Below, piece by piece: positions 3,140 through 31,663 of a stretch of 41,392 nucleotides of DNA. Every line of letters begins with the position of its first letter. The stretch's first letter is position 1. The DNA is from a virus, in the IMG/VR virus record IMGVR_UViG_3300042462_000918, positions 1 through 41,392 of that record; one strand, 5' to 3'. Made by a program: the position numbers and the translations under genes. Under the pieces are notes generated by a model that was not told the DNA's origin, did no database searches, and saw only the letters and a list, made by a program, of their open reading frames with translations.

Positions 3140-3177
3140 CAGCTTTTTCAAAATTTGTTCTTTTTTGTACAAATTAA

Positions 3178-3633
3178 TCACACACCCGTAGATCCAAAAC
3201 CGCCAGATGAACGCCTGGTCGGTTCTAAATCCGTGCTACGAACACTGGAAAAAACTACCGGGATGACAGGTGCAAATACAAGCTGCGCGATCCTGTCACC
3301 CTTATTCACAAGAAAATCATTCTTTCCCATGTTAGCGAGGATGACCTTAACCTCTCCCCTGTAATCGCTATCGAGAGTTCCAACTCCATTTAGGACAAAA
3401 ACGCCCTCTCTGGCTGCCAGTCCTGACCTGGATCTGACCTGGCATTCGTAACCCTTAGGAATTTCCATCGAAAGTCCTGTCGGCACTATAACCCAACTGC
3501 CCTTTGGAATACATACGTCCTCTGAGGCAGTTACATCACAACCAGCTGCACCAGCAGATGCATACCTAGGCTGTGTCTCTCCGACATACTTGACAGTCAA
3601 GATCCTGTCTTCATAACCATCCGTATCAATCAT
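3178..3633 (-). CDS. dut: dUTP diphosphatase (dUTPase)
   Basis: Hydrolyses dUTP to dUMP and pyrophosphate, keeping uracil out of phage DNA and feeding dTMP synthesis. All five motifs of the trimeric dUTPase family are visible: AGAAGCDV (I), VRSRSGLA (II), GVGTLDSDYRGEVKV with the catalytic Asp (III), GDRIAQLVFAP (IV) and the C-terminal Arg-rich RRSSGGFGSTG arm (V). I start it at the ATG at 3633 (151 residues). It overlaps the RecA stop by 8 bases and has GAGGAG upstream. The frame stays open for 31 more codons upstream, but these encode a Ser/Lys/Arg-rich run inside the RecA gene and are not dUTPase-like. It is probably coupled to recA. Confidence 0.95.
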   Translation of the reverse strand: MIDTDGYEDRILTVKYVGETQPRYASAGAAGCDVTASEDVCIPKGSWVIVPTGLSMEIPKGYECQVRSRSGLAAREGVFVLNGVGTLDSDYRGEVKVILANMGKNDFLVNKGDRIAQLVFAPVIPVVFSSVRSTDLEPTRRSSGGFGSTGV

Positions 3634-4870
3634 CTGTCGTCGTCTCCTCATCTTCATCTGGCTCGACTTCTTCCATGTCATCCTGACCATTTGTGATGAG
3701 AGCACAATCGATGACCTTATCGACAAACGGCTTGTATGCTGGGTCTCTCATAACGTCTCCGAAGTCATTCTTATAGAACTTTTTCTCAACGATGATCTCT
3801 CCTGTCGAAGAATCAGAGACAACCAGCTCTTTCCATGAACTTGTTCCAGCGATGGAAACGTCTACATCTCGTGTTACCTTCTTTGAATCAGTCCATGACA
3901 TGGAAACCTTGTTCTTTTCGCACCACGCTCGGCACTCGTCAAAAAGGTACTCGTGCTCCACGATGCCTTTTCCAAAGTGAATGTCAAACTCGCACTTACG
4001 GAAAGGAGGTGCGACCTTGTTCTTCTTGATGGAGATAGTCGTGTGAATACCGATGATATTCCCGGCTTTATCCTTGATCGGACTACCGCTACCAAGCCGG
4101 ATTCTCACTGAGGCATGGAAAGGAAGCGACTTTCCGCCAGGGCTCACGAGGGGATCGCCATGCATGACGCCGATAGACTCTCTCAACTGATTGATGCAAA
4201 TAAGAGTCACGTGGTTCTGACCGATCACACCCGTGATCTTACGGAAACCCTTGCTCAAAACACGAGCCTGCAGGCCGACCGTATTCTGATCATAATCACC
4301 CTCGAGCTCTGCCTTCGGAGAAGACGCCGCGACGGAGTCCCAAATCACAAGAATTGGCACGTTCTTATCAACGAGCTGCTTTGCCTTAGTGACTGTACTC
4401 TCGATGATCGCAAACACCTCTTCGGTGCAGTGAGTATCGCAATACACAAACCTCTTGGAGATGTCGATTCCCATGTGGCGAAGCTTTTGAATTGGCGTCG
4501 CATTTTCGGTATCAACATACACCACAAGCCCACCCAAAGACTGGGTTACTGCTGCGGCATGATATGCAAGGTGAGACTTACCAGAAGATGGAAGACCTGA
4601 GATCTCAATGATTCGACCTTCAGGATAACCCCCACCCATTGCATTGCGAATCGCATAGTTAAGCTGGATAGAACCTGTATCAATCCAACGCTTTACAAGG
4701 GTTGGCGCTTCATCTACGCTTAGATTATAAGCCACTCTTTGCCCAAACTCTTTGTTAAGCTGCTTGATAAGATCGGCAGTGAGATTATCAATCTCATCAC
4801 TACCCTTCTTCTTCGGCAGCTTTTCAGGAGTTTCGGCTGGAGCGGCAACTTTTGGTGTTGCCTTTGCCAT
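3626..4870 (-). CDS. RecA/UvsX-type recombinase
   Basis: Strand-exchange ATPase that forms filaments on ssDNA, used in phage recombination-dependent replication and repair. Walker A is GLPSSGKS (92-99), and VPILVIWDS (161-169) carries the Walker B Asp. The NQLRESIGV segment (217-225), followed by SPGGKSLPFHASVRI, covers the L2 DNA-binding loop and the conserved strand after it. The N-terminus is Lys/Ala/Pro-rich and the C-terminus ends in a very acidic tail (EEVEPDEDEET), as in RecA and UvsX. At 414 residues it is close to T4 UvsX in length. The gene lies 10 bases after the gp32-like SSB gene and overlaps dut, giving the functional order SSB, recombinase, dUTPase. An AAGGAGTAAAAA element precedes the ATG. 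Confidence 0.92.
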   Translation of the reverse strand: MAKATPKVAAPAETPEKLPKKKGSDEIDNLTADLIKQLNKEFGQRVAYNLSVDEAPTLVKRWIDTGSIQLNYAIRNAMGGGYPEGRIIEISGLPSSGKSHLAYHAAAVTQSLGGLVVYVDTENATPIQKLRHMGIDISKRFVYCDTHCTEEVFAIIESTVTKAKQLVDKNVPILVIWDSVAASSPKAELEGDYDQNTVGLQARVLSKGFRKITGVIGQNHVTLICINQLRESIGVMHGDPLVSPGGKSLPFHASVRIRLGSGSPIKDKAGNIIGIHTTISIKKNKVAPPFRKCEFDIHFGKGIVEHEYLFDECRAWCEKNKVSMSWTDSKKVTRDVDVSIAGTSSWKELVVSDSSTGEIIVEKKFYKNDFGDVMRDPAYKPFVDKVIDCALITNGQDDMEEVEPDEDEETTTDD

Positions 4871-14891: not shown

Positions 14892-15119
14892 TTACTCTTC
14901 GTTCTTAATTATGCCCACTTTCTCGTTCAGCGCCTGCACAAAAGCGTTACGTAGAGAGTCATCAGTCTTGACCCTCTCGGCGAACCCGTGGAGGGCCGTC
15001 ATGACCTCCGAGAATTTGCCGTGAAGGATTTCCTCTACCATTTTTTTCTCCTCGGGGGCGACCTTGGAGATGGCTGTTTTGTAGGCTTCGTTTTCTATGA
15101 TTTCTTGCATTATTTTCAT
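14892..15119 (-). CDS. Small acidic helical protein coupled to the tape measure gene
   Basis: 75 residues, mostly helical and charged (MQEIIENEAYKTAISKVAP, EEKKMVEEILHGKFSEVM). Unknown function. The ATG at 15119 overlaps the tape measure stop as ATGA; a second ATG three codons later is also possible. Placement directly after the tape measure and before the baseplate genes suggests a small tail assembly or baseplate factor, but nothing in the sequence proves it. Confidence 0.65.
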   Translation of the reverse strand: MKIMQEIIENEAYKTAISKVAPEEKKMVEEILHGKFSEVMTALHGFAERVKTDDSLRNAFVQALNEKVGIIKNEE

Positions 15120-18100
15120 AAATCTTTTCGTTGCGAGCCGCCTGTGGCGGTCAAGCGCTCTGGGGGTTTCTGATCTTTTCCAATAGGAAGTCCCTGCGTG
15201 CCGGTAAGACCCGGGTTTTGTGTCGCAAAGTTTAACCGGTCTCGAATGATCGACTTGCTTCTATAAACCATTGCTTTTTCTACTTCGCCAGCGTCCATTT
15301 CAACTTGGATATCTAGATTAATGACAACTTCCCGATTTGCCAGCCTCACCTCAGTTTTAGAGCCGCCGATGCCCAAGCCCCTTGCAAGGGTCTGTAAGCC
15401 GGCCCTAATTTGAACTTTACCCGCGTTTATTTCGTTCAATTGGCTGTTTAGAGCATTCACTTTATCGACAACATCAGTCAAGCCGGTCAACGCAGTGCCA
15501 ATACCCGCTGTGTTAAACGTCCCTGTCACGTTCTCAAATCCAGCTTTAATCCGTGAGAGATAAAGAGACAAGTCAAAGAAGTTAGTCGATATGGACTTGA
15601 GCTTCGTCATTTCAACATTGGCCAACGCCGTCTCTACCTGCGAAAGATTGACTCCCTGCACTGCGCCGACGAAACCCGCCGGAGTTTGACCAAATGCACT
15701 CGCGAGAGAGCCCAAAGAGTTCGAAATCTCTGAAAATTTGTTTCGAATATCTGCCCCAGAGGGCAAGGTAACGCCATTCATATCTTCCAACGCAGTTCCG
15801 AGACTGCTGAACGAATTCAAGAATGTCGTTATAGCACCAATCGCCTTGTCTGGGTTCACTGTCCCTAACGAAGTTTTTATGAAAGATATCCCGCCTACAA
15901 TACCCGGCATATGTGGGGCAATTTGACCCAAGGCAGTGCTTAAAGACTCCATCGCTGCCTCTATGGGACTTTTAACGCCTGGCATGCCCCAAAGCTTAAG
16001 CAAGGTATTAACTGCTTTTCCCCCGCCCTCTGCAGTTCCGAATTGCTTTAGGGCCGTGATCGACTCAGTCATCTTCTTCAGGTTGTCGAAAAATACGGTG
16101 ACTTTTTCTGCGACTTTTGACAAAGTTGCGCCATTATTGTAAGTACCCAAAAACTTACTAACCGCTGAAACATTATCCATCAGCTTTTTGAGACTATCAC
16201 CCTTTTCACTGCTCACCATGCTTTCCAATACTTCTGATATCCTACTTATGGCCGCGCCCATATCAAACTTAACTGTCGTCGGAGGTGCGCCGTCTTTTGC
16301 GCCTGGGACTGTGTCGAGCTGCTTGACTGCTGACGCGAGCTCAGGTATCGACTTCAGGAGGCTGAAGAGGCTCACGACGAGCTTTACCTGCTTCTCGAAC
16401 ACGTCTGCAGACGTGCCTGTCGGCATTCCACTCACCAATGTCTTCACGCCCTCTATCAAGCTTCCAGTAACGGGGCCGAGGCTTTTCAACGACCCGACGA
16501 CGTCAGCTATCGTGGTGGCTACAGGTAACAACATCTTTAAGGGACCGACCTTAACCTCTTGCATCTTGATTGGATTATTTTTCTGGGCCGTGCTCAAGGA
16601 GTTGATCAGATCTCCCAGCGCGCCTAAAATCGTGCCGATGCCCGCCAGCTTGCCTATCTGGTCCACGGGGATGCCCGCCACAGCGTTGACAAGACTCGTG
16701 ATTATACCGCTGGACAGGGCGGGCAAGGTGTCCTTTAACGAGCCGAGGTACGTCGTGAAGAACGTGCCCAGCTTTGTGAAATTGATGCCCTCCATACTGG
16801 TCCCGAGCATGCCACCGTCGGTTTTAAACCGGAACATCTCCATCAGCTTCGGATCGGGCATCAACGACTGCATGAGGCCGCCAAGCCCCGACAAGATCGC
16901 ACCCACACCCTTTGCTTTCTCTGGGTCTGGCATCGGTAAAGACAAGATGACGCCGATATTTGCTGCTAATGTGTTTATCAAGGCCCCGAGTGCGAGTGTC
17001 CGCTTTTCGGTCATTCTGTTGGCGCCGCGTACCATCGCATCGACCTCATCGTCGTCACCGCCCAGCTCATCGACCGCCTTGTAAAAAGCGTCAGAGGGTT
17101 GGAGACCTGTCAGGATGCCGGGTATTGAGGCAAGGAGATTCGTGAAAACTTCCGCAGACGGACCGAGATCTTCGGTCTTGACGCTTCGAGCTGCGTTCAG
17201 CAGCGTTTCTGCGATGCCGATGATGCCTGTCCCCTTGCCCGCCTCGCCGAGGAGGCTCTTGATAAACCGTCCCCCGGCATCCAGCCTTGACGCAGCAGTC
17301 TCTCCCTTTTTAAAATCCTGCTCAAGGAGGGTCTCGAACATTCCCCCGATGCCGTCGAACATCTTGACGACGACTTCCATCACTTTCATGAAAGAATCGA
17401 TCGCTGGGCCGACGCTCGAATTCAAGTTCGCTTCCTGCAATTTCTTCAAGATGTCCACTGCGGTCGTAGCCACAGCCATGACGCCCAAAGCTAAAGCTGT
17501 CATGCCTGATGTCATTAAGGCTGCGCCGATGCCTAATGTGCCTACAAGAACCACACCGATCGCCGTGGCCCCAAGCAGAATAGGCACCATCATGAGGAAT
17601 GCCATGGAGACTGAGTCTAAGATCTTAGCTGCATTTTCGACGTCTTGTGGGTTAAGGCCGCTTAATATTTCCACCACCGCCAAGGCAGTTCCAGCCATGG
17701 CCATAACGCCAACTGTCATTGTGAGCGCCCCGATTAGAACTCCAGGAAGCGGGATCTTAGCTGCTAAAAACATCACTCCCAACATCGGAATCGTAAGAAG
17801 AACCATAGAAGCCATCACCACAAGCAATTGCCCTATCGTTTCCCACTTGGCACCTTCCACCAGCTTCGACAGAGCAACTATTGCCACGGCGACGCCGCCC
17901 ATCGCCAACATGGATCCTGCAATCGCAAGCCCTCCCTGAATAATTTGACCCGGGCTTTGTCCGCTGGCCATGTTCATTGCAAGCATCATCGGAAGGGATG
18001 CCAGCGCGGCTGCGGTTAAAATACCTATTGACTGCCAAACAGCTGTCGGGTCTGAATCTTTCAAGATGGCGACCATTGCCTTGACAGCTAACGCCAAAGC

Positions 18101-20827
18101 GACGCCCCCGAGAGCCAAAGCACCAGCAATGGCCAGCAATTTTAAACCCATGTTGGCCGCAGCGGCAGGGTTAAATTTCTGTGTCGCGGCGTCGACTTTA
18201 CCTGCACCCGCTGCTGTTGCTGCAGTCGCATCCGTCGCAGCCTTTGCGTCTGCCACTTTGCCTGCTGCACCAGCCACAGCGCCCCCTTGATTTGTTATTG
18301 CTGCGGCTCTATTCGCGGCGTTTGTCGCTTCTCTTTGGAGATTTTGTGCCCTCTTAAGCTGCTTGATCTGCTGTTTATTTAGGTTAGACGTATCCACCCC
18401 AGCTGCGGACTTTGCTGCATCAGCTACGGCAGTGCCAGCACCCGCTGCAGCGCCTTGAACTGTGGCTCCAACTTTACCGATCACTGCAGCCAATTGGCTT
18501 GCCAGCAATTTACCGAAGCCTGCAACTGCCAACGAGAGCAGTCCTTTCAGCGCGGCGCCGCCGAATATTGCACCAATGACGTAAGGAGCGATGTCCTCGA
18601 GCATCGGTATTAACTTGGTCGATGCCCAGTTCCAAATCTTATCGCCCACGCTCTCCAACATCTCAAGCAACACAGGACTTATGTTTTTCCAAGCATCCTT
18701 GAGAGCCTCCCAGATGGGCCCTAGGGTCTCTGAAAGAAATGAACCGGCGCCACCATCAGTCAATTTTTCCTTGCCTGAGATGAGACGGCCGATGTACTTG
18801 ATTCCGCTTGCGACCTTCTCGGATAACCACCTGATCGCCTCCGTCGAGACCTTGGTGACGAAAGTCCACATCGTCTTGAATCCCTCGACGACCTTTTGAC
18901 CGGCAGAGCCCTGCGCACCCATGAACTTATCGAATACTCCGCCTGGTCCTGTGATGTTCTCCATGAGCTGCTTGAATGAATACTTGCCGCTCATAAACTC
19001 TTTAAAGAACTTTTTAAGCTCATCGACGATGCCGCCTGCGAGCTGCCTAAACTTCTTCGGATCGAATATCTCTTTCAGGCCCTCAAAGAACATCTTCATG
19101 CCTGGGAAAGTCTTCATGATAGCTTCGCCGAGCTCGCGGCCTGCCTGACGTAGCACGTGGAACGTGCCGATCATGTTACGCATCAAACCCCTGAACTCTG
19201 ACGTCCTCTCAAAGCCTTGCGTGACGCCTTGCAGGAACTTATCCAAGAATCCACCCTCACTGGAGCCTGATTGGGAGACAAGATCCATCGCACCTTTTAA
19301 CTCTCTTAATGCCTTAATCTGATCGATCTGGCGCTTCTCAGCTTCGTCGCTCTTTTTGTTTATCTTGTCTAATGACACTCCTTGGTTCTTTAGTGAGAAC
19401 GCTTGTTTAGCCGTGGCGGCGTCAAGTCCTGTAGCCGACTCCAAAAGAGACAGCTGCTGGCGATTGAATGACGAAGCATCCTTACCTGCTGCTGCAAAAG
19501 ACTTACGTAGCATGTCCAGCTGCGTAGCAGGATCCTGGGCCTCCATCATCTTGAAGGCGTCGATATTTACGCCAAAGGCCTGTGACAGCTTCGATGCGTT
19601 GTCTGCGGCACTCTCAAAAGTCTCAAAGGCGTCTAGGGTTCCCGTGATCTTTTCAAGTTCTAATCCAAGCTTTCTAGCATATACTGAGGCGGACGCAATC
19701 TGCTTCACAGTCGCACCGCCAAAGTGCTTCACGTCTCCGAGAGCTTTTGCCATGTCCTTTGAAATCAATTTCGCTGACACACCGAACTGCTTGGAAAGAG
19801 CGAGAGACTGCTTCGTGAAGCTGACCGCAACAGATGTGACAGATTGACCTGTTATCTTTGCTTGCATGGTCAAAGATCTAAACTCTTCGCCTGTGAGCCC
19901 AAGCCCTTTCATGAAAGACGGTAGCTGCTTGCCTGTCTTCTTAAATTCATCAGCAAAACTGTCGAACGTGGCGCCAAGACCCACAGACATATCAAGAAAT
20001 GCTTTTAGCTGTGCGCCTGCCGAGCCCCACATTCTCCTTGCGTTCAGCCCAGTACCCTCGAGCGATTCGTTATTTTTCGCCATGGATATGAGGGCAGAGG
20101 AGGCCGTCTGCTGCAAATCGCCGTAAGCTTTTTTCACTTCTTGAACGGCTGCAAACCACTCGCTAGATCCGCTCGCGAGTTTGTTCGCTTTCTCTGTAAG
20201 GAAGTCGAGGAAGTCGAAGGGCAACGCTATGATGGCCTTTCCTATCTCTAGAATGGCATCCACGACATTTTTGAAAGCGTCGATTGCGAAGCCGATACCG
20301 GCTCCCACTGCGCCAAATCCAGATGTCAAACCGCTTAATGCCCCTGAGGCAAAAATGGCCGACTTGGGAAACCTTTCCTTCAACATCTTTGTCAAATCTT
20401 CCCAAGTCTCGATGGCTTTTTCCGTTTTCTTATTGTTGTCTTGAACAGCTGTGGCCAGCTTCGCCACACTGTTAGACGTATTGCTGGCCGCATTGCCGGC
20501 CTGGTTAACGGCGGTGGCCATGGCAGTGACTGACGTCCCTGCTTGCTTCGCTTGATTGGACATGTCACCAAGTGTCTGTTGCGAAGTTTTCCCGAGATTG
20601 CCCAGCTTGGCAGTCAAATCATTGATGGCTTTTGTGGCAGCGTCGACGCTTGTTATAAGAGCCTTTGTGTCCAGCGCTTTCATCGCATCTTGGATCTGAG
20701 TCATGATCTGGACTTGATCCATCTGCTTCTTGTTGACGGCGTCAACCGCGGCGGCCATCTGCTGCGTTACGGCCAGCAGATTTTTGGCGATATCAAGCTG
20801 CTCTGTTGTCGAGTTTGACTTTGCCAC
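15116..20827 (-). CDS. Tail tape measure protein
   Basis: Sets tail length, fills the tube lumen and takes part in DNA delivery. At 1903 residues it is the largest gene here. It has an N-terminal coiled-coil region (about 1-130, Gln/Ala/Asn-rich), a long hydrophobic region with many Ala/Gly/Leu/Val segments (about 740-1140), and a long helical C-terminal half with repeating 'GxLxxLxxxLP' type stretches. That is the usual tape measure composition. By the general rule of about 1.5 angstrom per residue the tail would be roughly 280 nm long. I use the GTG at 20827, which has AAGGGGTGA before it; no ATG is close. It follows a 30-codon ORF by 10 bases. Confidence 0.93.
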   Translation of the reverse strand: MAKSNSTTEQLDIAKNLLAVTQQMAAAVDAVNKKQMDQVQIMTQIQDAMKALDTKALITSVDAATKAINDLTAKLGNLGKTSQQTLGDMSNQAKQAGTSVTAMATAVNQAGNAASNTSNSVAKLATAVQDNNKKTEKAIETWEDLTKMLKERFPKSAIFASGALSGLTSGFGAVGAGIGFAIDAFKNVVDAILEIGKAIIALPFDFLDFLTEKANKLASGSSEWFAAVQEVKKAYGDLQQTASSALISMAKNNESLEGTGLNARRMWGSAGAQLKAFLDMSVGLGATFDSFADEFKKTGKQLPSFMKGLGLTGEEFRSLTMQAKITGQSVTSVAVSFTKQSLALSKQFGVSAKLISKDMAKALGDVKHFGGATVKQIASASVYARKLGLELEKITGTLDAFETFESAADNASKLSQAFGVNIDAFKMMEAQDPATQLDMLRKSFAAAGKDASSFNRQQLSLLESATGLDAATAKQAFSLKNQGVSLDKINKKSDEAEKRQIDQIKALRELKGAMDLVSQSGSSEGGFLDKFLQGVTQGFERTSEFRGLMRNMIGTFHVLRQAGRELGEAIMKTFPGMKMFFEGLKEIFDPKKFRQLAGGIVDELKKFFKEFMSGKYSFKQLMENITGPGGVFDKFMGAQGSAGQKVVEGFKTMWTFVTKVSTEAIRWLSEKVASGIKYIGRLISGKEKLTDGGAGSFLSETLGPIWEALKDAWKNISPVLLEMLESVGDKIWNWASTKLIPMLEDIAPYVIGAIFGGAALKGLLSLAVAGFGKLLASQLAAVIGKVGATVQGAAAGAGTAVADAAKSAAGVDTSNLNKQQIKQLKRAQNLQREATNAANRAAAITNQGGAVAGAAGKVADAKAATDATAATAAGAGKVDAATQKFNPAAAANMGLKLLAIAGALALGGVALALAVKAMVAILKDSDPTAVWQSIGILTAAALASLPMMLAMNMASGQSPGQIIQGGLAIAGSMLAMGGVAVAIVALSKLVEGAKWETIGQLLVVMASMVLLTIPMLGVMFLAAKIPLPGVLIGALTMTVGVMAMAGTALAVVEILSGLNPQDVENAAKILDSVSMAFLMMVPILLGATAIGVVLVGTLGIGAALMTSGMTALALGVMAVATTAVDILKKLQEANLNSSVGPAIDSFMKVMEVVVKMFDGIGGMFETLLEQDFKKGETAASRLDAGGRFIKSLLGEAGKGTGIIGIAETLLNAARSVKTEDLGPSAEVFTNLLASIPGILTGLQPSDAFYKAVDELGGDDDEVDAMVRGANRMTEKRTLALGALINTLAANIGVILSLPMPDPEKAKGVGAILSGLGGLMQSLMPDPKLMEMFRFKTDGGMLGTSMEGINFTKLGTFFTTYLGSLKDTLPALSSGIITSLVNAVAGIPVDQIGKLAGIGTILGALGDLINSLSTAQKNNPIKMQEVKVGPLKMLLPVATTIADVVGSLKSLGPVTGSLIEGVKTLVSGMPTGTSADVFEKQVKLVVSLFSLLKSIPELASAVKQLDTVPGAKDGAPPTTVKFDMGAAISRISEVLESMVSSEKGDSLKKLMDNVSAVSKFLGTYNNGATLSKVAEKVTVFFDNLKKMTESITALKQFGTAEGGGKAVNTLLKLWGMPGVKSPIEAAMESLSTALGQIAPHMPGIVGGISFIKTSLGTVNPDKAIGAITTFLNSFSSLGTALEDMNGVTLPSGADIRNKFSEISNSLGSLASAFGQTPAGFVGAVQGVNLSQVETALANVEMTKLKSISTNFFDLSLYLSRIKAGFENVTGTFNTAGIGTALTGLTDVVDKVNALNSQLNEINAGKVQIRAGLQTLARGLGIGGSKTEVRLANREVVINLDIQVEMDAGEVEKAMVYRSKSIIRDRLNFATQNPGLTGTQGLPIGKDQKPPERLTATGGSQRKDL

Positions 20828-21021: not shown

Positions 21022-21231
21022 TCAACTAAATCTTCTCAATCTGGAGGGTGTCTGTGTCCTCGCTCTGTTCTGTAGAGCTCTAACATCAGGTGAGTTCTGG
21101 TGCAAAGCCCTGCTGGGCGTTTCTTCCCCATTTCCCTTGTTTAACTCTTTGCTGATTCTTTCGATGAACCAGCGCCGATACGTGACTGGAAGGTTGTAGG
21201 CTTCTCCGTACAAGAATCCCCCATAATACAT
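21022..21231 (-). CDS. Possible frameshift extension of the gp26-like gene (tail assembly factor)
   Basis: 69 residues from the ATG at 21231: MYYGGFLYGEAYNLPVTYR, then RWFIERISKELNKG and a polar end. The aromatic, LPV-x-YRRWF-containing core looks like the second half of tail assembly chaperones. The ATG has no ribosome binding site. The same frame is open upstream to 21312, inside the gp26-like gene, and that part is also protein-like (FFGLRPEDKALAVLEPTFLL directly before the Met). It is in +1 frame relative to gp26, so a +1 (or -2) shift would give a fusion of about 369 residues. It may be an independent coupled gene instead. See the candidate shift site. Confidence 0.6.
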   Translation of the reverse strand: MYYGGFLYGEAYNLPVTYRRWFIERISKELNKGNGEETPSRALHQNSPDVRALQNRARTQTPSRLRRFS

Positions 21232-21265
21232 GAGTAAGAATGTTGGTTCGAGTACTGCAAGTGCC

Positions 21266-22132
21266 TTATCTTCCGGACGAAGGCCAAAGAAAGTTGACTC
21301 CGAGCGGCATGTTCACCTCCTCCTGGTGACCACAAGCCGGGCAAGACGTCTCCTGCTTCATCTCAATGCCAGGTTCACTGTCCTTGATGTAATTTCTCAA
21401 GGCGAGAGAATCGCGGGCGGGCATCACCTTCACGAACGCCGCGATCTTGGCTCTATCCTCCACACCGTCGATCGAGACAATGGAATACATGAGGTTGGTC
21501 GTCACGTTTGACTCAGACGAAAGTCCCAGCTTCTTCTGCTTCTCTCCTGTCGCCATGATGTCTTCCTCGTCCTTTCCAGTCAAGAACCTGAACTTGACGA
21601 TCTTCTTTGAGAGAGGAAGCTTGAACTCAAAGACGTTCTGGCCGGGGGCAGTGGGCGCGATCTCAAGGCGCTTAAGCGGCAGCATAGTCAGCTCAAACTT
21701 GTGGGGTGCCTTCGTGCCGCACTCTGGGCACTCGACCTCGGCGTCATAGTCTGAACCGTACCCAGTGATTCTGATGGCAACCATCAAGGCGTTTCTGTCG
21801 CCAGTGAGAAGATCGCGAGGATCGATGCTCTTATCCATGAGGCATGACCTGATGAGCTCAGTGATGACTGTTCCCTTCTTAAGATATGCCTTGCTGGTCA
21901 GGATGTCTTCTTCACGGGCCGTCATTGCTCTGATGTCCACGGTCTCACGGCCGTACAACGACGAATCTACTGGGTAGACGAGGCCGCTCGATGGGAGGGG
22001 CATTGTCTCAACCGGGATATCAAGACCGAAGTCTGACTTCACCTTATCAAAGGACGACATCTGCTGAATTCTCGGGTCAGCACCCGGTACACCCTTAAAA
22101 ATCTCATTCTTCTGCTCACGTGCGTCTGACAT
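21266..22132 (-). CDS. T4 gp26-like baseplate/tail assembly protein
   Basis: 288 residues, matching the T4 gp26-type baseplate family. A conserved-looking start (VETMPLPSSGLVYP) is followed by a middle with VDIRAMTAREEDIL and a zinc-ribbon split over two CxxC pairs (C135/C138 and C264/C267: CPECG and CPACG). In T4 this protein is a baseplate hub component; in large phages the same family stands just before the tape measure, where tail assembly chaperones are found. It ends NFLWPSSGR at 21266. AAGGAGTTTAAG precedes the ATG. A very strong SD-like sequence (AGGAGGAGGTGAAC) lies inside the gene directly before Met275. The gene is divergent from the plus-strand gene at 22232. Confidence 0.85.
   Translation of the reverse strand: MSDAREQKNEIFKGVPGADPRIQQMSSFDKVKSDFGLDIPVETMPLPSSGLVYPVDSSLYGRETVDIRAMTAREEDILTSKAYLKKGTVITELIRSCLMDKSIDPRDLLTGDRNALMVAIRITGYGSDYDAEVECPECGTKAPHKFELTMLPLKRLEIAPTAPGQNVFEFKLPLSKKIVKFRFLTGKDEEDIMATGEKQKKLGLSSESNVTTNLMYSIVSIDGVEDRAKIAAFVKVMPARDSLALRNYIKDSEPGIEMKQETSCPACGHQEEVNMPLGVNFLWPSSGR
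21286..21292 (-). promoter_or_regulatory. Candidate +1 translational frameshift site (TTT CTT TGG)
   Basis: Near its end the gp26-like gene reads AAC TTT CTT TGG CCT. Slipping +1 at TTT-C or at CTT-T joins the gp26 frame to the frame of the 21022-21231 ORF before the TAA at 21266. The shift must fall within 21312-21266, between a TGA that closes the +1 frame and the gp26 stop. CTT-T is the same P-site pair as in the prfB +1 shift. The strong SD-like AGGAGGAGGT is about 25-30 bases upstream, farther than in prfB. Inference only. Confidence 0.4.
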
Positions 22133-22628: not shown

Positions 22629-22913
22629 TCAGCCCTTCTTTGTCGTCATGTAGCCGTGCACCTGCTGAATGTTTTCGTGTGCGACAGATATGTGGTCCTG
22701 CACCCAACCAGGAAGCTGGTCGTTAGGCTGCAACAGTGCACGTAACTCCTCTGCCATCTCACAGGTTGAGGTGAGCTTTCCCATCGCCATTCCGCCCTCT
22801 GAATCATGCGGATCTTCTCCGTGTAAGAACCTTGTGGGGTCGGCGTCTCCTATTCCCATGGAGGCGTACTCTTCCTTGATGATTCTCTTCAACATCCCTG
22901 CAGTCAACTTCAT
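22629..22913 (-). CDS. Small protein with the N-terminal MKLT...IIKEEY tag
   Basis: 94 residues, function unknown. It opens MKLTAGMLKRIIKEEYASM, the tag shared with 2775-3125 and 25270-25623. After a Gly/Asp-rich linker comes a helical module (MAEELRALLQPNDQLPGWVQ, then DHISVAHENIQQVHGYM). A similar 'LPxWVQxxIxxAxxxIxxVxxY' helix pair is common in small proteins of large marine phages and looks like a structural or scaffold-type helical hairpin. AAGGGGAC precedes the ATG. The gene lies 15 bases after the homing endonuclease stop. Confidence 0.75.
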   Translation of the reverse strand: MKLTAGMLKRIIKEEYASMGIGDADPTRFLHGEDPHDSEGGMAMGKLTSTCEMAEELRALLQPNDQLPGWVQDHISVAHENIQQVHGYMTTKKG

Positions 22914-22928: not shown

Positions 22929-24584
22929 CTAAATAGGCAAGTGAAAAATTATATTTGGCATACCGAATATTTGAGAAACCTTTGCGGCTCGGGCGGCTTC
23001 CGCCTGAGAAATGCCATTCTTTGAATCCGCACGAATACTGAAACGATTCAGTCTTTTATTGAAGTCAGTCCACCAAAACCTCGGTTCTTTCCCAGTCTCG
23101 ATATGCTTCCATCCGGCAGCCATATATCCTGCCCCTGCTCCGACTCTCATGTCGACATACGTCATCAAAACGCTTGAGCCTGATTCTCGGGCGTATTGTT
23201 TTGCTGCAGATGATAGCTTACCCAGCCATCCCCTGACATTACAACCTAATTTTGCGCAACACCTACCGAGCTCAAGCCCACCGTCATATTTTCTATGAAA
23301 CGGTCTCCTGATTGAGATGGCAGCTAACAATTCTCTCGTCTCAGGTTCAAACAGTCCCAAGTAGCGCAGCCCCACGACATGACCCTCCAGGTGGTTCGAA
23401 TCAAAAAAAACCCTTGCAGCTGCGGGAGATACATCACCTAATACGAGACTTCGCGCGTTATACGACCTGTCGCAACCCATTAACCTGTGCTTGATCATGC
23501 TCTTGATCACGTCTTTCTTGTCGCGCCACTCGTCTTCATAGATCGAAAAGAGGTTCACACCCACTTCACGACAAGCCAACAGCTTCTTATAGTGGTAGAG
23601 TGGGTCCTGTTTGCACTCAGATGAATGCCAATAAAGACCGTTGTACTCTATGGCTAAATTTTTAGAAGGGACCCAGACATCGATCTCTTTAGGCGGAATC
23701 ACATCTCGTGCTGACAGCTGTACATCATGCCCGAGCGTCCTGATAAACTCGTAGATCTCTAATTGCCCCGTGGATTCTTTGGGGTGACACTTGAAGCACA
23801 CAGGGGATTCCTCTAGCATGGCAAGACTTTTGGACTGTTCAGATCCGCAAGCATTACACTGGAATAGCATCCTGTCTATTCGGCGGCGCCTGTAGCACTC
23901 TGGGTCTGATACTAACGTGAACTTGCCTGCCTCTCGAACACGATCCAACAGCTCGGTGACTGACAAACGTTTTCCGGCCTCTCTCTTCCTGTATGACTGA
24001 GACACTTTTTTCGCAGTGCGTTCCACTGAAGCGTGCGTCTCTTTCGTGAGGCCTGAGTTCCACGGGACCGTCTCTCCTGTCGAGTGCCTCGCTTTTTTCG
24101 TAAAAGAGGATTTTCTTGACGCTGTCTCCGCCTTCTCAGCATCCGCGCGCCAATCGACAATCCTACCAGATGAATACCCTTCTGTCAGAGTCATCGATAT
24201 CTTATCGGCAATACCCTTAATCTTGTCAGAACTGCCCTTGTCTAGGCCCTTGTTCCACACAGAATATTTTCCGGCCTTGAACCCCTCCCTTCTTTTCTCG
24301 ACAATGGACTGCTGACGTTCTGGGTCACCGTAGACGGAATACACACGTGCATTGTGACCTCGCACGTACTTAGAGGTAAATCCGTTTTTCCACCCAGACC
24401 AAGCGAGGAGAGACGTGCACTGCTCGTCGCAGACGCACTTTGGATGTATTCCCGCATGAAACGTCTCCAAGTACAACGAAAAATGATCGCTGATATCGTG
24501 GACGTCTTTCAGGTGCCCCACAAAACGCTTCTCTTGGGCAAAGTGCGCGTCGCAGCGCGGGCACTTGATCTTCTCATAGGTCAT
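22929..24584 (-). CDS. Free-standing homing endonuclease, Vsr-like (EDxHD) nuclease domain
   Basis: 551 residues, multi-domain. An N-terminal C2H2 zinc finger (C8, C11, H24, H29) comes first. Two NUMOD3-like Trp-Asn-Lys/Ser-Gly-Leu motifs follow (VWNKGLDKG about 109-117, PWNSGLTKET about 174-183), then a zinc ribbon (C243/C246, C263/C266). The Vsr-like core has EIYEFIRTLG, PPKEIDVWVP with D302, and LAIEYNGLYWHSS with E313 and H320. The last 190 residues (FDSNHLEGHVVGLRYLGLF, then YVDMRVGAGAGYMAAGW) match a GNAT-like tail seen in other phage endonucleases of this type. It should cut a specific DNA site and copy itself into gene-less alleles. It stands between the tail tube and a tagged gene. 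No ribosome binding site is obvious. Confidence 0.85.
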   Translation of the reverse strand: MTYEKIKCPRCDAHFAQEKRFVGHLKDVHDISDHFSLYLETFHAGIHPKCVCDEQCTSLLAWSGWKNGFTSKYVRGHNARVYSVYGDPERQQSIVEKRREGFKAGKYSVWNKGLDKGSSDKIKGIADKISMTLTEGYSSGRIVDWRADAEKAETASRKSSFTKKARHSTGETVPWNSGLTKETHASVERTAKKVSQSYRKREAGKRLSVTELLDRVREAGKFTLVSDPECYRRRRIDRMLFQCNACGSEQSKSLAMLEESPVCFKCHPKESTGQLEIYEFIRTLGHDVQLSARDVIPPKEIDVWVPSKNLAIEYNGLYWHSSECKQDPLYHYKKLLACREVGVNLFSIYEDEWRDKKDVIKSMIKHRLMGCDRSYNARSLVLGDVSPAAARVFFDSNHLEGHVVGLRYLGLFEPETRELLAAISIRRPFHRKYDGGLELGRCCAKLGCNVRGWLGKLSSAAKQYARESGSSVLMTYVDMRVGAGAGYMAAGWKHIETGKEPRFWWTDFNKRLNRFSIRADSKNGISQAEAARAAKVSQIFGMPNIIFHLPI

Positions 24585-24702: not shown

Positions 24703-25194
24703 TCAGAACTGTAGGACGCAGTTGTCGAAGCGGAGTGTGAGAGAGATCTCAAGGGGACCGCCGTCCTCGTATGTGACTTCACCGAAGTTGACCTCAGTCG
24801 GAAAAGCTCCCTTGATATCCCAAAGTTCGATCACTGTGCCGACAGGATCGAGCAACTTCAGCTGAATGTCTCTCTTGTAGAAGTCGGCGTAGCCGGCGCG
24901 ACCCGAGACGGACTCGTAGCAAGTGCGGATCCACTCCATGCACTGCTGAGCGCCTGAGGGAGCGATCGGGTCGTGCAACGTGACCGCGATGGTCCCGAAT
25001 GTGGTCTTACCCGCGACGTAACGACGTGAGTTGATGAATGGAATTTCCTGCTCTTCGGTGCTCACCGTCGGGCGTGCCGCCGTCTTGCAGATATAGGCGT
25101 CAATACCCTCGATCATGAGAACCCATCGGTTCTTGCGCTTGGGCTCAAACTTCGTCGGTAACATCGATGATACGTCAAGTGTCTCTGCGGCCAT
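24703..25194 (-). CDS. Tail tube protein (T4 gp19-like)
   Basis: 163 residues, the length of T4 gp19. It forms the stacked hexameric rings of the inner tail tube. Supporting segments are KNRWVLMIEGIDAYICKTA near the N-terminus, IPFINSRRYVAGKTTFG, ITVTLHDP-type strand (IAVTLHDPIAP), and the C-terminal strands GTVIELWDIKGAFPTEVNFG and EISLTLRFDNCVLQF, all typical of tube proteins of contractile tails. GACAGGAGATTCACAC precedes the ATG. It has its own NATARTTA-like element and terminator, consistent with high expression as a single gene. Confidence 0.92.
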   Translation of the reverse strand: MAAETLDVSSMLPTKFEPKRKNRWVLMIEGIDAYICKTAARPTVSTEEQEIPFINSRRYVAGKTTFGTIAVTLHDPIAPSGAQQCMEWIRTCYESVSGRAGYADFYKRDIQLKLLDPVGTVIELWDIKGAFPTEVNFGEVTYEDGGPLEISLTLRFDNCVLQF

Positions 25195-25269: not shown

Positions 25270-25623
25270 TCAAAAATTATTTTTGTCAGCCTGTAAAAAC
25301 AGCGACTTTAATGAGGGTTTTTTGTCGGCGCCGAGTGCGGTCGGTTTTTGTGCAGGCTTCCACGCCGAAGACATGTTGTGATCTGCGTCGTAATAGCTGG
25401 CGCCACCGAGAGGATAATCTTCGTAGCTGTCGTCGTACTCATCTTCGCAACCGCAGTCTCCATCGCCTGAAGCATCAAGCTCGACGTCAATTTGGCCCAA
25501 CATGACAGAACCAGGAGCAACATCGATGGGAACAGACCGAGAGGGCACATGAGGGACATCACGGATCACCCTTGACATCTCTTCAGAAATTATCTTTTTT
25601 AGTTGGTTTACCGTAATTCTCAT
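25270..25623 (-). CDS. Small acidic protein with the N-terminal MRIT...IISEEM tag
   Basis: 117 residues, function unknown. The start MRITVNQLKKIISEEMSRV is the third copy of the tag (compare 2775-3125 and 22629-22913). A middle part with VPIDVAPGSVMLGQIDVEL is followed by a very acidic Cys/Asp/Glu/Tyr run (GDCGCEDEYDDSYEDYP) and a basic C-terminal end (KKPSLKSLFLQADKNNF). The second half is low in complexity and likely disordered. It stands between tail sheath 1 and the tube gene with a weak GAGAAG site before the ATG. Confidence 0.72.
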   Translation of the reverse strand: MRITVNQLKKIISEEMSRVIRDVPHVPSRSVPIDVAPGSVMLGQIDVELDASGDGDCGCEDEYDDSYEDYPLGGASYYDADHNMSSAWKPAQKPTALGADKKPSLKSLFLQADKNNF

Positions 25624-25653: not shown

Positions 25654-28623
25654 TCACTCTGCCTGGAGACCATTGGCGACGACGAAGTCGAGTGAAACAA
25701 ACTCGATGGACTTGGTGGGCTGGACAAAGATCTTACCGCGGACCGTGTTGTTCTCGATGTCCTGCTGCGTCGTCGTCGAAGAGTCCACTATTACCCTGAA
25801 CCTCTCGAGTCCTGCCTGTGCCTGGATCCTCTGGAGACGTGGTGTCACGGCAGCAGTGAATCTAGCGAGTGTCGCGGCGCGATTTGGCTCGAACAGAATG
25901 GTCTGGGCGATATCGCGAACCTGACGTCTGATCTCGATGAGCAACCTGCGGACATTCACTCGGTCAAGAGCAGAGGCTGCAGTCTGAAGCGTCTTCTGAC
26001 CCCATACAACCGGACCGCCGCTGCCGTCGAATGCAGCAATTGGATTGATGTTGGCATCGTACAAGACATCCATGTCTGCTTGATTCAGTCTTACCTTTGC
26101 CTCAATTGCCCTGTTACCGATTGCACCTCTTGTGAAGCCGGCAGGTGCAAACCACGGATGGCCGAGCCTGTCGTTGAGTGCCATCGCACCAAGGACCACG
26201 ACTGAAGGGGGAACAACGAGGTTTGTACGTGTGTTCGGGTCCTGCATCGTGACATCGGGGAAGTAAGCGGCAGCGAAGTTGTTGTCTAGCGCCCTATTCT
26301 TGAAGTTCGTGACAGTGTTGCTCACATGGGGTCTTTCTGTCGTGTACTTGATGTCGTTGTTAAGGTTGTCCTTCTCAACAATGTCCATTAGGTACAAGGC
26401 GTCAAACCTGTCGCGAACTGACTCGGCAGCGAGAGTCGTGACAGACTCTTCACGAATGCCTGGGATCACAAGGAGCTGCAGGTCGACATTGACAACGTTC
26501 TTCATGATCTCTAGAGCCTTTGTGTAGGCCCTCGCGCAATTGCCATTCTCACGACCACGATCATCCCAAGCCATGTCTGCGGCGACCGCGACGTTGTTAA
26601 ACTCTGCAGAGTCCCTGTCGAACAGGTTTACACCGTCAAATCCACCCTGCATGATCATCGTGAACTTTGCGAACTTGCGGTTTGCAGACACCGTGAGGTC
26701 TTCAACCTTGAACGCTCGAGTCGAACCTGCCGGAGTGATGTTACCACCTCTGACGTACACTGCATCTTTCCATGACTGATCATCGGCAAGGCCCGCTGCA
26801 TTTTCGGTAACTTTCACATTCTCAAGTGTGAAAAGGTTGTTGCAGAACCTGTCTGAGTCCAAGATACCGAATGCAGCTGTGTCTTCCTGTCCTGGATTGC
26901 TTCCCGTCAAAAAGCGAGCGTTGACTGTCGAGAAGTTCGGGAAGTACTTGGCAAACGAAAGGATCGACTTGTTACGAAGGGTAGACACATTCTGGTTATC
27001 CAGGTTTGTGACGTGCTCAAACTGAACGCCCCAGTACAACCTAGAGCTTGCAGCTGTACGATCACCTTCGCCTAATGTGATCGATTCCCTGAATGGCACG
27101 GGGGGTGTCACGGCATTCTTAAGAACTGTGGCTGCGAGAGTTGCGACGTCCTCAGCCGAGCTGGCCAGTGGCGCTGAACCTGAGGTTACCAAGTGATCGA
27201 TGCCGCGGAAACCGACGGGTAAAGCGGTCGCCTCGACCATGCCGAGTTCGATGTCTGGATTTACCTCTACACGAACGTAGTTTGACTGAGCCGGGTAGTT
27301 CCCCTCAATCACGACCTTCTGCGATCTCTCATCTCTGTCAAAGTCGAAGAACGCATTGACGTCTCCGATCACCTTTGAGATGTACCTGTCACTTCTGGGA
27401 TCTAGCGAAAGACCGCGGAACTGATTTATGGCTCTTATTTTCTCGTCTGAGTCGACAAAGTCTCTCACCACGACGTCGAATGTCCCGTACTTGTTTGTAA
27501 GGTCGGGTGAGGGTGTGATGTTTTCGATTGAGATCTTGTAGTTGCTCGAGACACCAGCACCCGCATCAATTGCGTGGAACCTGAAGAGATCGACAGCCTC
27601 GCCGCCGAAACGTTGCGATATCACCCACGGCGACTTTGCGTTCGAGAACCTATCCTCGAACGTCTCATAATTTGGAACAGTTGTACTTCCAGCGTCACGG
27701 CCGCTAGAGCCCGTAGTCAAGAATGCGTAAGGCCTCATGACTCCATCTGCGTCAGCCGTAAGGCCTGACCCGTCAACGGCTGCGAGCACAGGATGAATAT
27801 CCCAGTGCGCGTACAAGCAGTGTCCTGCTTCCTGAAGTTTGTAGGGGTCTGTGTTAAACTTGTTCCCAAAGTACGCAGGACTTCTCACGTCGAAAGAGGC
27901 GGCGACGACGTTCGGATATCTAGAATCTGTGCCTTTGTGACCGTTCAAGAGCATCACAAACTCTTGCTTTCCGCCTGAAAGGTCGACGCTGCCGATGGTC
28001 TTGCCCTTGAGATTGCCGCTGTTCCCATCGGCGACAAATCCCGAAGCGGGAGCGCCAGAAGTATTTGCGCTAAATGAAGACGAAAGCTTCAGGTTAACGC
28101 CTGAAGCAGCCATCAATACCCCACGTACGATGACAGCGGGGTCGTCACTTCCAACCGTCTGCAAACCTGCAGATGAGAAGATTGTCGAGCCGGCAGACTC
28201 CGACATGAACGCGCCGAGGAAATATGTTCGGCCAGGTGAGCCGCCCACGTTGGCATATGGGTTATGTTCATAACCACCGTCGTCCAAGGACGGAAGCTGC
28301 TCGCCCACCACAAACCCAGCGTTTGTGACAGAGCCGTCGGCGTTACGCTGCTTACCGTCACCCACCCCAAGGGTCCTGATGAAGGTCGCAGAGCCAGCGC
28401 CTTCGCCGAGCCACGTCGAGACAGCGAGAGGACCAAACTTCTTCCCGTCTGTCTTACCGAACTTGTCATAAAAATCGCTGATGTTTCCAACAGTGACAGG
28501 TATGAAAGCGGGCCCCTTCACGGCTGTACCGATGACGCCTGCGGGGACGCCTGTCGGCTGTGTGGTCACTGGGCCTGATAGATCTATTTCCGTTGCAGTT
28601 ACTCGAGCGCTTCCTTGTGCCAT
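25654..28623 (-). CDS. Tail sheath protein 1 (gp18-like)
   Basis: Contractile sheath subunit, 989 residues, longer than T4 gp18 (659). Family signs: the start with IDLSGPVTTQPTGVPAGVIG and VKGPAFIPVTVG, and near the C-terminus the hallmark region LDRVNVRRLLIEIRRQVRD, then PGIREESVTTLAAESVRDRF and WFAPAGFTRG earlier. The middle third is probably surface insertion domains. It is a paralog of the sheath upstream (28673-31663), clearly similar at both ends and diverged in the middle. GGGAGCACAAAA precedes the ATG. Confidence 0.93.
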   Translation of the reverse strand: MAQGSARVTATEIDLSGPVTTQPTGVPAGVIGTAVKGPAFIPVTVGNISDFYDKFGKTDGKKFGPLAVSTWLGEGAGSATFIRTLGVGDGKQRNADGSVTNAGFVVGEQLPSLDDGGYEHNPYANVGGSPGRTYFLGAFMSESAGSTIFSSAGLQTVGSDDPAVIVRGVLMAASGVNLKLSSSFSANTSGAPASGFVADGNSGNLKGKTIGSVDLSGGKQEFVMLLNGHKGTDSRYPNVVAASFDVRSPAYFGNKFNTDPYKLQEAGHCLYAHWDIHPVLAAVDGSGLTADADGVMRPYAFLTTGSSGRDAGSTTVPNYETFEDRFSNAKSPWVISQRFGGEAVDLFRFHAIDAGAGVSSNYKISIENITPSPDLTNKYGTFDVVVRDFVDSDEKIRAINQFRGLSLDPRSDRYISKVIGDVNAFFDFDRDERSQKVVIEGNYPAQSNYVRVEVNPDIELGMVEATALPVGFRGIDHLVTSGSAPLASSAEDVATLAATVLKNAVTPPVPFRESITLGEGDRTAASSRLYWGVQFEHVTNLDNQNVSTLRNKSILSFAKYFPNFSTVNARFLTGSNPGQEDTAAFGILDSDRFCNNLFTLENVKVTENAAGLADDQSWKDAVYVRGGNITPAGSTRAFKVEDLTVSANRKFAKFTMIMQGGFDGVNLFDRDSAEFNNVAVAADMAWDDRGRENGNCARAYTKALEIMKNVVNVDLQLLVIPGIREESVTTLAAESVRDRFDALYLMDIVEKDNLNNDIKYTTERPHVSNTVTNFKNRALDNNFAAAYFPDVTMQDPNTRTNLVVPPSVVVLGAMALNDRLGHPWFAPAGFTRGAIGNRAIEAKVRLNQADMDVLYDANINPIAAFDGSGGPVVWGQKTLQTAASALDRVNVRRLLIEIRRQVRDIAQTILFEPNRAATLARFTAAVTPRLQRIQAQAGLERFRVIVDSSTTTQQDIENNTVRGKIFVQPTKSIEFVSLDFVVANGLQAE

Positions 28624-28672: not shown

Positions 28673-31663
28673 TTAGACGAACTGTACGCCGCTGTTGGTG
28701 ACGATGAAGTCGATCGCGATGTATTCAATCACTCTCGTCGGAACCACAACGATCCTCCCGTTAAGACGATTGGCGTCCATGTCGGCCTGTGTGTTGTTGG
28801 TCTCATTCATAACGACCTGGAACGCCTCGACGCCGGCCTGTGACTGGATCATGCTGAGTTGCAGCGATGCATCGGCGACGAAACGGTTTCTTACCTCGGG
28901 CGTGTTCTGCTCGAAGATCAGACGCTGAGCGATGGCAATGACGATTCTCTTCACTTCAAGAAGCAAGCGACGGACGTTGACACGGTCAAGAGCTGACTTA
29001 CTCACCTGGAGTGTCTTCTGGCCGTAGATGACGTAGCCGAGACGTGGGAATGTGGCGATCGGGTTGATCCTCGAGTCGTACAGCGAGTCCCTGTCTGAGA
29101 CGTTGAGACGAACGCCCACGTTTGTAACGAAATCGAGCGCGGCCCTGTTGAAACCAGCAGGAGCGAACCATGGATAGGCAACCTTGTCGTTGAAAGCAAG
29201 GGCCCCGAGAGCAGCCACTGATGCAGGAACCTTGACTCTTCTGCGGTTCACGGTGTCATCGATGAAGACGTCGGGGAAGTAAGTTCCCACAAAGTTGTTG
29301 TCGATAGAGCGAGCGTCGAACAACTTGATCGTCTCGTCCACACTTGGACGTGCCGTGGAATCGTCGTAGAGGCGATTTGAGCTGTCGTCGTAGGCAGGAA
29401 TGTCCATGACGTAGTATGACAAGCCGTAATCCTTAACTTTACTCATCGCGTAATCTGTGATGTAGCTCTCACGGATGCCCGGGATCGCCAACACATTCGT
29501 GTTCGTGGCCATCGGATCCGTCATGATGTTGATCGCCGTCTTGTACGACATCACAGTCGAGTTCTCGATGGTTGCACCCGCATGGTTCGTCGAGTTGAAC
29601 CCGGGCGATGCAAACGTTGCGCTTGCACCTGTTTCAAACGATCCTGCCTTGTCATTCAGACGACGGGCGTCGCGGTCGAGAATGTTCACACCGTCCCAGC
29701 CACCATGCATAAAAGTCACGAACTTGGTGTACTGCGAGTACTTGTTGAACTCCGACGCGCTCAGCTTACTCAGCAATGTCGCGAATGTGTAACGATCGCC
29801 GAGGGCATCATTCACCGTGTAGTTCGTGCTATCAACGACACCGTTTCTGATGTAAGCAGCTTCCTTCATGTGCTGGTTGATTGAGCCCGTAAGGTTTGTC
29901 GTCGCTGTCGCCGAAAGGGCAACACGTGCAAGTGTGAACTTGTTGTCGTTGAAGGTATCTGCACCAGACCCTGTCACAAGCGTATCGAGCTTCGAAAGGC
30001 CCATGAACTTCGTGTAAGCTGCCAGAAGACCGTTCTTCTCGCTTGAGGCGTTCGGATTGAGTGCAATGTTGTTCCTTTCGAACTTCACGCCCCAGTGGTA
30101 CAACGACACAGGAACCTCGGTGTTGCTTGGCTGTCCGAGCCAACCATATGAGCTGTTCATCGCGCCGCGCGTCACCTTGACGCGGAATGGAATAGGCGGA
30201 AGAATTGATCCTCTAAACTCAGTGTCGGTTAGCTTGGCACCAATTCTCGCGTTTGCGGCGTTGGGCTCGCCAGCTGTCAAAAGATCATTTGTCTTTAGGA
30301 GCTGCATGCCCCTAAACCCGAACGGTAAGCAGTTGGCAGGAACAAGGTTCCTTTCGACGCTGTCGTTCATGACAACCCTGACGTACTTGGATACATTTGT
30401 ATACTTACCTGACGTCACGATTCTACGCTCACCCTCAACGGTCATGTCAAAGTCGTACGTGACCTTACGGTCGCCTATAAGCTTTCCGATGTAATTCTCG
30501 ACAAGCGGGTTTAATGAGCAATTGACGAAAGACTCAAGCACAACCTGGTTAATGTCTGTGTCATTCCAGTCGCGGATGTTGACTGTGAAGGTGCCGTATG
30601 GATTTGAATCGTCCATAGAGGCTCTCAAGTCCGCAATGGCAATCTTGTAGAGCGTATTTGCGTACTCACCGTCGTCCACTGCCTCGAACTTGAAGAGATC
30701 GTGCTCTACATCACCGAAAGGTTGCGAGATAAACCACGGGGTCTGTGGGGTCTGAAACCTTGTGTCGAACGACCCGAACGTTTCGCGCATTGTCAATGAT
30801 GCGTCACCAGAGACGGCAGACGTTTTTAAGGTACCGGACAGAATTGCAATTTCATTCCCACCGTTATCTGCAAGCTCATAATCTACCGGAAAATCCGCAT
30901 AAACCAAATGCTGCTCTTGCACGAACTTGTCTGGATCTGTGTTAAGAACTTTGGCAAAGTAATCTGCGCTCGACGGGTCAAGTGACACTGTTAAAACGCG
31001 GATGCCAGGCAAACCGCCAGTGTTGGCAAAAGTATTTCCCAGCGAAGATGAAATGACAATGCTAAACTTGCCAGAGGAATCTGCAGTGACCTGATCCACA
31101 TCTGTGACATCGAATGCAGGGGTGCTTCCAACAGCTGAAATCATGATCCTTGAAGTCTCAGTTGACATAAACATGCCACGAATCATTCGACTGCCAGTGA
31201 CATAAGAATAATTCTCAGACAACATCGGAATGACGCTCTCGTTTGTAACATTTATGTCATGCTCTGCTGCTAAAAACTGCACAACTCCTGCGTGGGAAGA
31301 GAAAGGGGCTTGAACGCCTGAGAGCTTCATACCTGCATTCTTCACGCGGCCTGTGTCGAGCGTGTCCTGAATGTCTGCATCCACGTTGTTGGAACCGGCG
31401 CCGAGGACGCGCAGATATGTCAAGGCCGACTTGTTCTTCAAGAACTCGTTGACGGCGTAGGGGCCGTACTTCTTGGGATCCAAGTTACCGAACTTGGAGA
31501 CGAACTCACTGAAGTTGGGGACAGTGACGGGGACGAACGCGGGCCCCTTGTTTGCTGTCCCAATGACGCCGCCTGGTACACCGGAAGGTGCCGCGGGCGT
31601 CGGGGCTGAAAGGTCAATCTCACGTTCGAAAAAATTTGGTGATCTGAATGTTTGCTCGGGCAT
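28673..31663 (-). CDS. Tail sheath protein 2 (gp18-like paralog)
   Basis: 996 residues, a second complete sheath protein. It opens PNFFEREIDLSAPTPAAPSG and has GVIGTANKGPAFVPVTVPNF, WFAPAGFNRAALDFV, YGQKTLQVSKSALDRVNVRR and IPGIRESYITDYAMS, all shared with sheath 1. Both copies are full length with good ribosome binding sites (here AAGGAGAGCGG), so neither looks like a pseudogene. Two sheath genes could form mixed tubes, or one could be specialised for a tail end or for baseplate contact. I cannot tell which is the main subunit. Confidence 0.92.
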   Translation of the reverse strand: MPEQTFRSPNFFEREIDLSAPTPAAPSGVPGGVIGTANKGPAFVPVTVPNFSEFVSKFGNLDPKKYGPYAVNEFLKNKSALTYLRVLGAGSNNVDADIQDTLDTGRVKNAGMKLSGVQAPFSSHAGVVQFLAAEHDINVTNESVIPMLSENYSYVTGSRMIRGMFMSTETSRIMISAVGSTPAFDVTDVDQVTADSSGKFSIVISSSLGNTFANTGGLPGIRVLTVSLDPSSADYFAKVLNTDPDKFVQEQHLVYADFPVDYELADNGGNEIAILSGTLKTSAVSGDASLTMRETFGSFDTRFQTPQTPWFISQPFGDVEHDLFKFEAVDDGEYANTLYKIAIADLRASMDDSNPYGTFTVNIRDWNDTDINQVVLESFVNCSLNPLVENYIGKLIGDRKVTYDFDMTVEGERRIVTSGKYTNVSKYVRVVMNDSVERNLVPANCLPFGFRGMQLLKTNDLLTAGEPNAANARIGAKLTDTEFRGSILPPIPFRVKVTRGAMNSSYGWLGQPSNTEVPVSLYHWGVKFERNNIALNPNASSEKNGLLAAYTKFMGLSKLDTLVTGSGADTFNDNKFTLARVALSATATTNLTGSINQHMKEAAYIRNGVVDSTNYTVNDALGDRYTFATLLSKLSASEFNKYSQYTKFVTFMHGGWDGVNILDRDARRLNDKAGSFETGASATFASPGFNSTNHAGATIENSTVMSYKTAINIMTDPMATNTNVLAIPGIRESYITDYAMSKVKDYGLSYYVMDIPAYDDSSNRLYDDSTARPSVDETIKLFDARSIDNNFVGTYFPDVFIDDTVNRRRVKVPASVAALGALAFNDKVAYPWFAPAGFNRAALDFVTNVGVRLNVSDRDSLYDSRINPIATFPRLGYVIYGQKTLQVSKSALDRVNVRRLLLEVKRIVIAIAQRLIFEQNTPEVRNRFVADASLQLSMIQSQAGVEAFQVVMNETNNTQADMDANRLNGRIVVVPTRVIEYIAIDFIVTNSGVQFV

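Follow-up and report, generated by a model that had tools for sequence, protein, structure and literature searches.

The gp26-like gene of the window, an IMG/VR virus record of 41,392 bases, very probably encodes two tail assembly chaperones through programmed +1 frameshifting at UUU CUU UGG, a short form of 288 aa and a long form of 369 aa that would be the counterpart of the G/GT pair of phage lambda. Comparison of sequences among related loci shows a conserved frame relation between the gene and its extension, a frozen slip site and coding in the extension, and we infer that the shift is by +1, not -2, along with a chaperone role and any ratio between the products. The gp26-like gene lies on the minus strand at 21266-22132, starting at an ATG at 22132 with a good Shine-Dalgarno (SD) sequence upstream (TTAAGGAGTTTAAGATG) and stopping at the TAA at 21268-21266; its 0-frame product of 288 aa ends in ...GVNF LWPSSGR, encoded by AAC TTT CTT TGG CCT TCG TCC GGA AGA TAA. 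The extension ORF (minus strand, 21022-21312) opens after the TGA at 21315-21313, closes with the TGA at 21024-21022 and, read in the +1 frame relative to the gp26-like gene, translates as FFGLRPEDKALAVLEPTFLLMYYGGFLYGEAYNLPVTYRRWFIERISKEL... The original prediction of a frameshift at this place had been assigned to 21022-21316, an interval that does span the second ORF, although the gene of the short product starts at 22132. The two frames indeed overlap only within 21312-21266, that is, over 47 nt, and the TTT CTT TGG reported in this overlap is located at 21284-21292 on the minus strand, with UUU in the E site, CUU in the P site and UGG in the A site, followed by a CCT (21281-21283, minus strand) whose third base T is fixed.

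The arrangement has the layout of a G/GT-type module, with a pair of overlapping ORFs between the tube and tape measure genes, the second one in a shifted frame and without a start of its own. Upstream lies a gp19-like tail tube protein gene (24703-25194, minus strand; PF06841 with E 7.9e-5, below the curated cut-off), and downstream a 1903-aa candidate tape measure protein gene (15116-20827, minus strand), considered as such from its position and length; no informative Pfam match was found for the first 794 residues of this candidate, and the genes at the same position in relatives carry a tape measure annotation. Gene order among relatives is sheath, tube, gp26, extension and tape measure. 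Regarding the mechanism, most ribosomes would terminate at the TAA at 21268-21266 to produce the 288-aa short form. Some ribosomes, with a tRNA paired to CUU in the P site while UGG is exposed in the A site, would slip one base forward, the P-site tRNA re-pairing on UUU and T21286 being skipped, and would then read GGC CTT CGT... into the long form (...GVNFLGLRPEDK...). The computed length of this frame-shifted product is 369 aa, in agreement with the roughly 369 residues anticipated, and the junction peptide predicted for the window is GVNFLGLRPEDK or GVNFFGLRPEDK. In general, a step of one base could bring the P-site tRNA onto UUU or UUC. If the pair works as G/GT does in lambda, its common part would coat the tape measure protein, and recruiting the tail tube protein would fall to the extension.

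The first line of evidence is the relation between the two frames. Searching IMG/VR with both proteins provided, together with phage genomes, 160 loci that carry both parts, and the extension is in the +1 frame in all 160 of them. After the addition of distant relatives 274 non-redundant loci were analysed, and in the +1 groups the +1 frame remains open for at least 100 nt across the gp26 stop in 200 of 200 non-redundant loci, compared with only 13 of those 200 for the -1 frame. Locus L361, with gp26 at 3046-3891, likewise has its extension in the +1 frame. None of these counts represents independent observations, since the loci are mutually related. A separate gene for the extension, whose translation would begin independently through coupling or re-initiation once gp26 has terminated, is very unlikely to account for these arrangements. 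It is true that Microcystis phage Mel-JY01, a cultured relative of the +1 type, has the extension annotated as a separate CDS. In the window, however, the first ATG of the extension frame, at 21231, lies inside the conserved domain and, as had been predicted, has no ribosome binding site (no SD; anti-SD energy of +3.5 kcal/mol), and no ATG, GTG or TTG is found upstream of it in that frame. Among 191 loci, there are 87 whose extension frame contains no start codon before the conserved GLxP, and 107 (about half) have one near the site, rarely with an SD. From the findings named beforehand as contrary to frameshifting, none appeared except an early start in the extension frame with a good SD at an SD-like spacing, in 7 of the 191 loci, one of these starts being an ATG.

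A second line of evidence comes from the slip site itself. The alignment of homologues that had been called for revealed, besides the +1 relation, YTT TGG CCT at the junction in 191 of the 192 loci having the Trp codon, a conserved slippery sequence as in G/GT-type systems. The predominant forms are TTT TTT TGG CCT (121 loci) and TTT CTT TGG CCT (63), followed by the rarer TTC TTT (4), CTT TTT (3) and TTT CTC TGG CCA (1); the locus with this last, degenerate site (L157, 2928-3060) also bears a downstream insertion containing a TTTTTTCGG stretch. Across the rest of these genes, TTT and TTC occur in a ratio of 861:537 (TTT being 62% of the Phe codons), CTT represents 828 of 3520 Leu codons (24%) and CCT 499 of 1499 Pro codons (33%). 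That the preceding codon is more often UUU than UUC would be consistent with weak E-site pairing, judging from prfB. In a tree built from 125 sequences, third positions upstream have a median of 41 changes, compared with 4 and 1 inferred for the third positions of the two slip codons. The T that ends CCT is also fixed, which is explained by its place in the middle of a Leu codon of the +1 frame. The junctions that lack TGG have TTT followed by C (SP-15, GXN1, BRock, LuckySocke and LR756508) or by T (L333, L335 and LIS04), and across junctions the pattern is UUU or CUU followed by U or C, barring single cases where a neighbouring UUU can serve. In the window group, CUU or UUU in the P site followed by U corresponds to the slip of the prfB type.

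The phase of coding selection changes at the same point. Upstream of the slip site, changes per site amount to 38.1 at 0-frame third positions compared to 13.6 and 8.5 at the other two. In the overlap right after the slip site, which lies ahead of the gp26 stop in most loci, the fastest positions are already the third positions of the +1 frame (25.3 versus 8.7 and 15.3), and beyond the overlap they remain so (37.7 versus 18.5 and 9.5). As third positions of the +1 frame are the ones that change fastest from the slip site onwards, this frame is under protein-level selection from there. A separate start further down appears hard to reconcile with coding selection that begins at the slip site, upstream of any common start, and it would leave the frozen YUU-UGG and the invariant frame relation unexplained. 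Altogether, the frame relation, the frozen site and the phase switch give strong comparative support to the prediction of a +1 slip at YUU-U fusing gp26 to the extension before the tape measure gene.

Relatives outside the +1 group place the extension after gp26 in the -1 frame; these include cyanophages, GAP32, Serratia BF, PA5oct, Atu_ph07 and a megaphage. A classical -1 site, T TTT TTC, joins the same protein pair in 68 of 72 cyanophage and jumbo-phage loci, and the megaphage LR756511, in which T TTT TTC is found further upstream, belongs with this group. Independent translation of the extension draws its other arguments from here, as it is listed as a separate CDS in the -1-type phages S-RIM8, S-SCSM1 and Cygsa01. 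Cygsa01 has a TAATG without a TTT TTC site, and its extension may be translated by re-initiation at that TAATG. S-SCSM1 is the one clear exception: at 2150-2374 of its locus it has T TTT TTC, yet the extension is in the unexpected +1 frame with its own ATG, through an indel or else a switch to translating the extension on its own. A different arrangement is seen in two loci of the Pseudoteven type (1501-2795), from Xman and RCIP0002, where a gp51-like and a gp26-like gene follow each other on a single strand; in T4 the gp51/gp26 gene pair is divergent.

For the frameshift at the slip site, a change of two bases backwards leads to the same frame as one base forwards and adds one residue to the product, and such a -2 shift is employed by phage Mu (review PMC5009743). 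The form TTT TTT TGG would permit -2 re-pairing, but no good -2 partner exists in TTC TTT TGG (4 loci), in the TTC TTT CGT of GXN1 or in the CTG TTT CGC/CAG of BRock and LuckySocke, and YUU followed by Y always offers the P-site tRNA a +1 partner. A -2 shift is therefore even less probable here than separate translation. Lastly, the idea that one contig carries a sequencing or assembly error, or a gene in decay, has nothing in its favour beyond the general risk of metagenome contigs, and it is refuted by the comparison, since hundreds of contigs as well as cultured phages show this arrangement.

With respect to the signals that might stimulate the +1 shift, the strong SD-like element announced for the window (AGGAGGAGGT, 21324-21315) is present and conserved, but the 25-nt spacer between its GGAGGT (21315-21320, minus strand) and the P-site codon matches neither the prfB nor the dnaX type of stimulator, so that it fits no known one. 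Such a distance exceeds the known stimulating range and therefore counts against what is otherwise the best explanation. The element is found in relatives at -34 to -29 from the A-site base. A strong anti-SD site near this position is present in every locus of the window clade, the mean energy of the anti-SD duplex being -11.1 kcal/mol versus a baseline of -0.57 further upstream, and the Glu codon within the element is GAG in 119 of 123 cases versus 43 of 124 at control Glu codons. In relatives of the type of Mel-JY01 and Flavobacterium phage immuto (also cultured) the SD-like sites are further off, in 8-nt windows starting at -48 to -37, and are found in 85% of the loci versus 11% of control stretches. 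In the -1 group the SD takes its usual place, about 10 nt ahead of T TTT TTC. An internal start at the ATG after the SD-like element was considered and discarded, as an ATG occurs there in only 76 of 125 loci. Conserved RNA structure was likewise rejected as the stimulator: RNAalifold, run on 48 and 51 non-redundant sequences, yielded no consensus structure downstream of the slip site. Single-sequence z-scores in 100-nt windows are somewhat low in the window clade (-1.76). Tentatively, and with more doubt than confidence, these features could be read as a new class of +1 signal, UUU-YUU-UGG acting with neither stop codon nor RNA structure and stimulated by an SD element 25 to 40 nt upstream; the same tentative reading includes that the signal is kept across a large T4-like clade whose relatives shift -1 at the same spot in the same protein. 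Should this far-off SD-like element prove active, it would represent a stimulator of a new kind.

The gp26-like protein matches PF12322 (E 1.4e-19) and phrog_150 (E 8e-23) in profile searches, and its score of 71.1 bits against a curated cut-off of 24.5 places it in the T4_baseplate family (T4 gp26 family) of PF12322. T4 gp51, a paralogue of gp26, matches the same family over residues 1-201 (E 3.9e-52) and carries an extension-like C-terminal tail in frame. A search of Pfam and PHROG with the extension alone gave nothing significant, and comparing the profile of the window-type extension directly with that of the gp51 tail produced no significant match either (probability 0.8%). A chain of profile matches links them: the window extension with the Mel/immuto type (99.4%), the latter with the cyanophage type (93.1%) and the GAP32 type (95.8%), and the cyanophage extension with the gp51 tail (97.6%). 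From these matches it follows that gp26 would correspond to the short form, the long form being either gp26 joined to its extension or gp51. Most likely, then, the gp26-like protein is itself the G counterpart (TAC-N), contrary to the idea of a zinc-ribbon gp26 protein that had borrowed the frameshift, and the extension, through its profile link to the gp51 tail, is most likely the T counterpart (TAC-C). T4 gp26 and gp51 have been listed as hub assembly chaperones (PMC3004832). The two parts were also modelled apart: a helical hairpin is predicted for the extension, and the AlphaFold2 model of the gp26-like protein has a pLDDT of 88. Neither a profile sequence search of PDB with gp26 nor Foldseek at E below 0.001 found a match in PDB; in a second look at PDB, the HK97 tail assembly chaperone 2ob9 and the uncharacterised 3fgx shared the top rank with a modest Z of 6.3 (below 8), the next being 4.5, so the likeness of the model to 2ob9 is suggestive only.

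Various studies have addressed related systems. According to a review (PMC5009743), tail chaperone shifts are -1, -2 or +1 depending on the phage and are conserved except in T4, and the tail chaperone of HSTV-2 very likely uses +1. A +1 shift is also indicated for structural proteins of Listeria phage PSA by a title cited in PMC9024508. Both resemble the window in being +1 cases in tailed phages, a likeness that rests on the papers' descriptions. The lambda G/GT system (TAC-N/TAC-NC) shifts -1, unlike the +1 at YUU-UGG proposed for the window. The prfB (RF2) frameshift shares the CUU-U slip in the P site with the window, where neither the SD about 3 nt upstream nor the A-site stop codon of prfB is found, UGG occupying the A site; at the prfB site, UUU and CUU rank among the codons most liable to shift (PMC10885494). 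The -1 systems of cyanophages and jumbo phages have in common with the window the PF12322 protein and its fusion before the tape measure gene, and differ in direction and in the position of the SD, about 10 nt upstream there and 25 nt for the SD-like element here. In T4, gp26 and gp51 belong to the same family as the window gene, gp51 consisting of a gp26-like part and the extension-linked tail, but the two forms are separate genes without frameshifting instead of one gene with a slip. Vladimirov, Gautam and Davidson (Virology 2022, 566:9-15) identified T4-like tail assembly chaperones, and this work, as far as the articles citing it convey, is prior art for the T4 part, that is, for genes 26 and 51 as separate sources of the two forms. 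It is cited in PRFect (PMC10885494) for T4-like phages with a short gene and a fused longer gene, and in PMC12846349 for poly-T -1 sites in T4-like phages, to judge from the citing passages. Sullivan et al. 2010 (PMC3037559) described cyanophage gp51 as lacking the first 200 residues; the frameshift would account for this short 'gp51', which would be the part added to gp26 after the slip.

A +1 site kept throughout a large clade of T4-like tailed phages, uncultured and almost wholly metagenomic, looks new, and so does the SD-like GGAGGT 25 nt ahead of it; among phages that shift frame in this way, +1 is the rarer direction. One protein family would thereby reach the same chaperone pair by three routes: shifting +1, shifting -1 or, as in T4, encoding each form in its own gene. 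It becomes possible to test directly how the direction of shifting changed at a single site and how frameshifting was gained or lost. The annotation is corrected as well, since public records miss the extension or list it as a separate hypothetical gene. Other features of the window are worth mentioning. Between the tail tube and gp26 genes, a 551-aa ORF (22929-24584, minus strand) has no Pfam match and looks by eye like a homing endonuclease. Two small proteins, encoded at 22629-22913 and 25270-25623 (minus strand), have a motif in common at the N-terminus (MKLTAGMLKRIIKEE, MRITVNQLKKIISEE). Two large tail sheath paralogues of 989 and 996 aa adjoin each other at 25654-28623 and 28673-31663 (minus strand), and a 996-aa fibre-like protein made of near-identical repeats (EGGKITMSNGAVIDSETAGELKLDEDLVKVTGDL) is encoded on the plus strand at 35382-38372.
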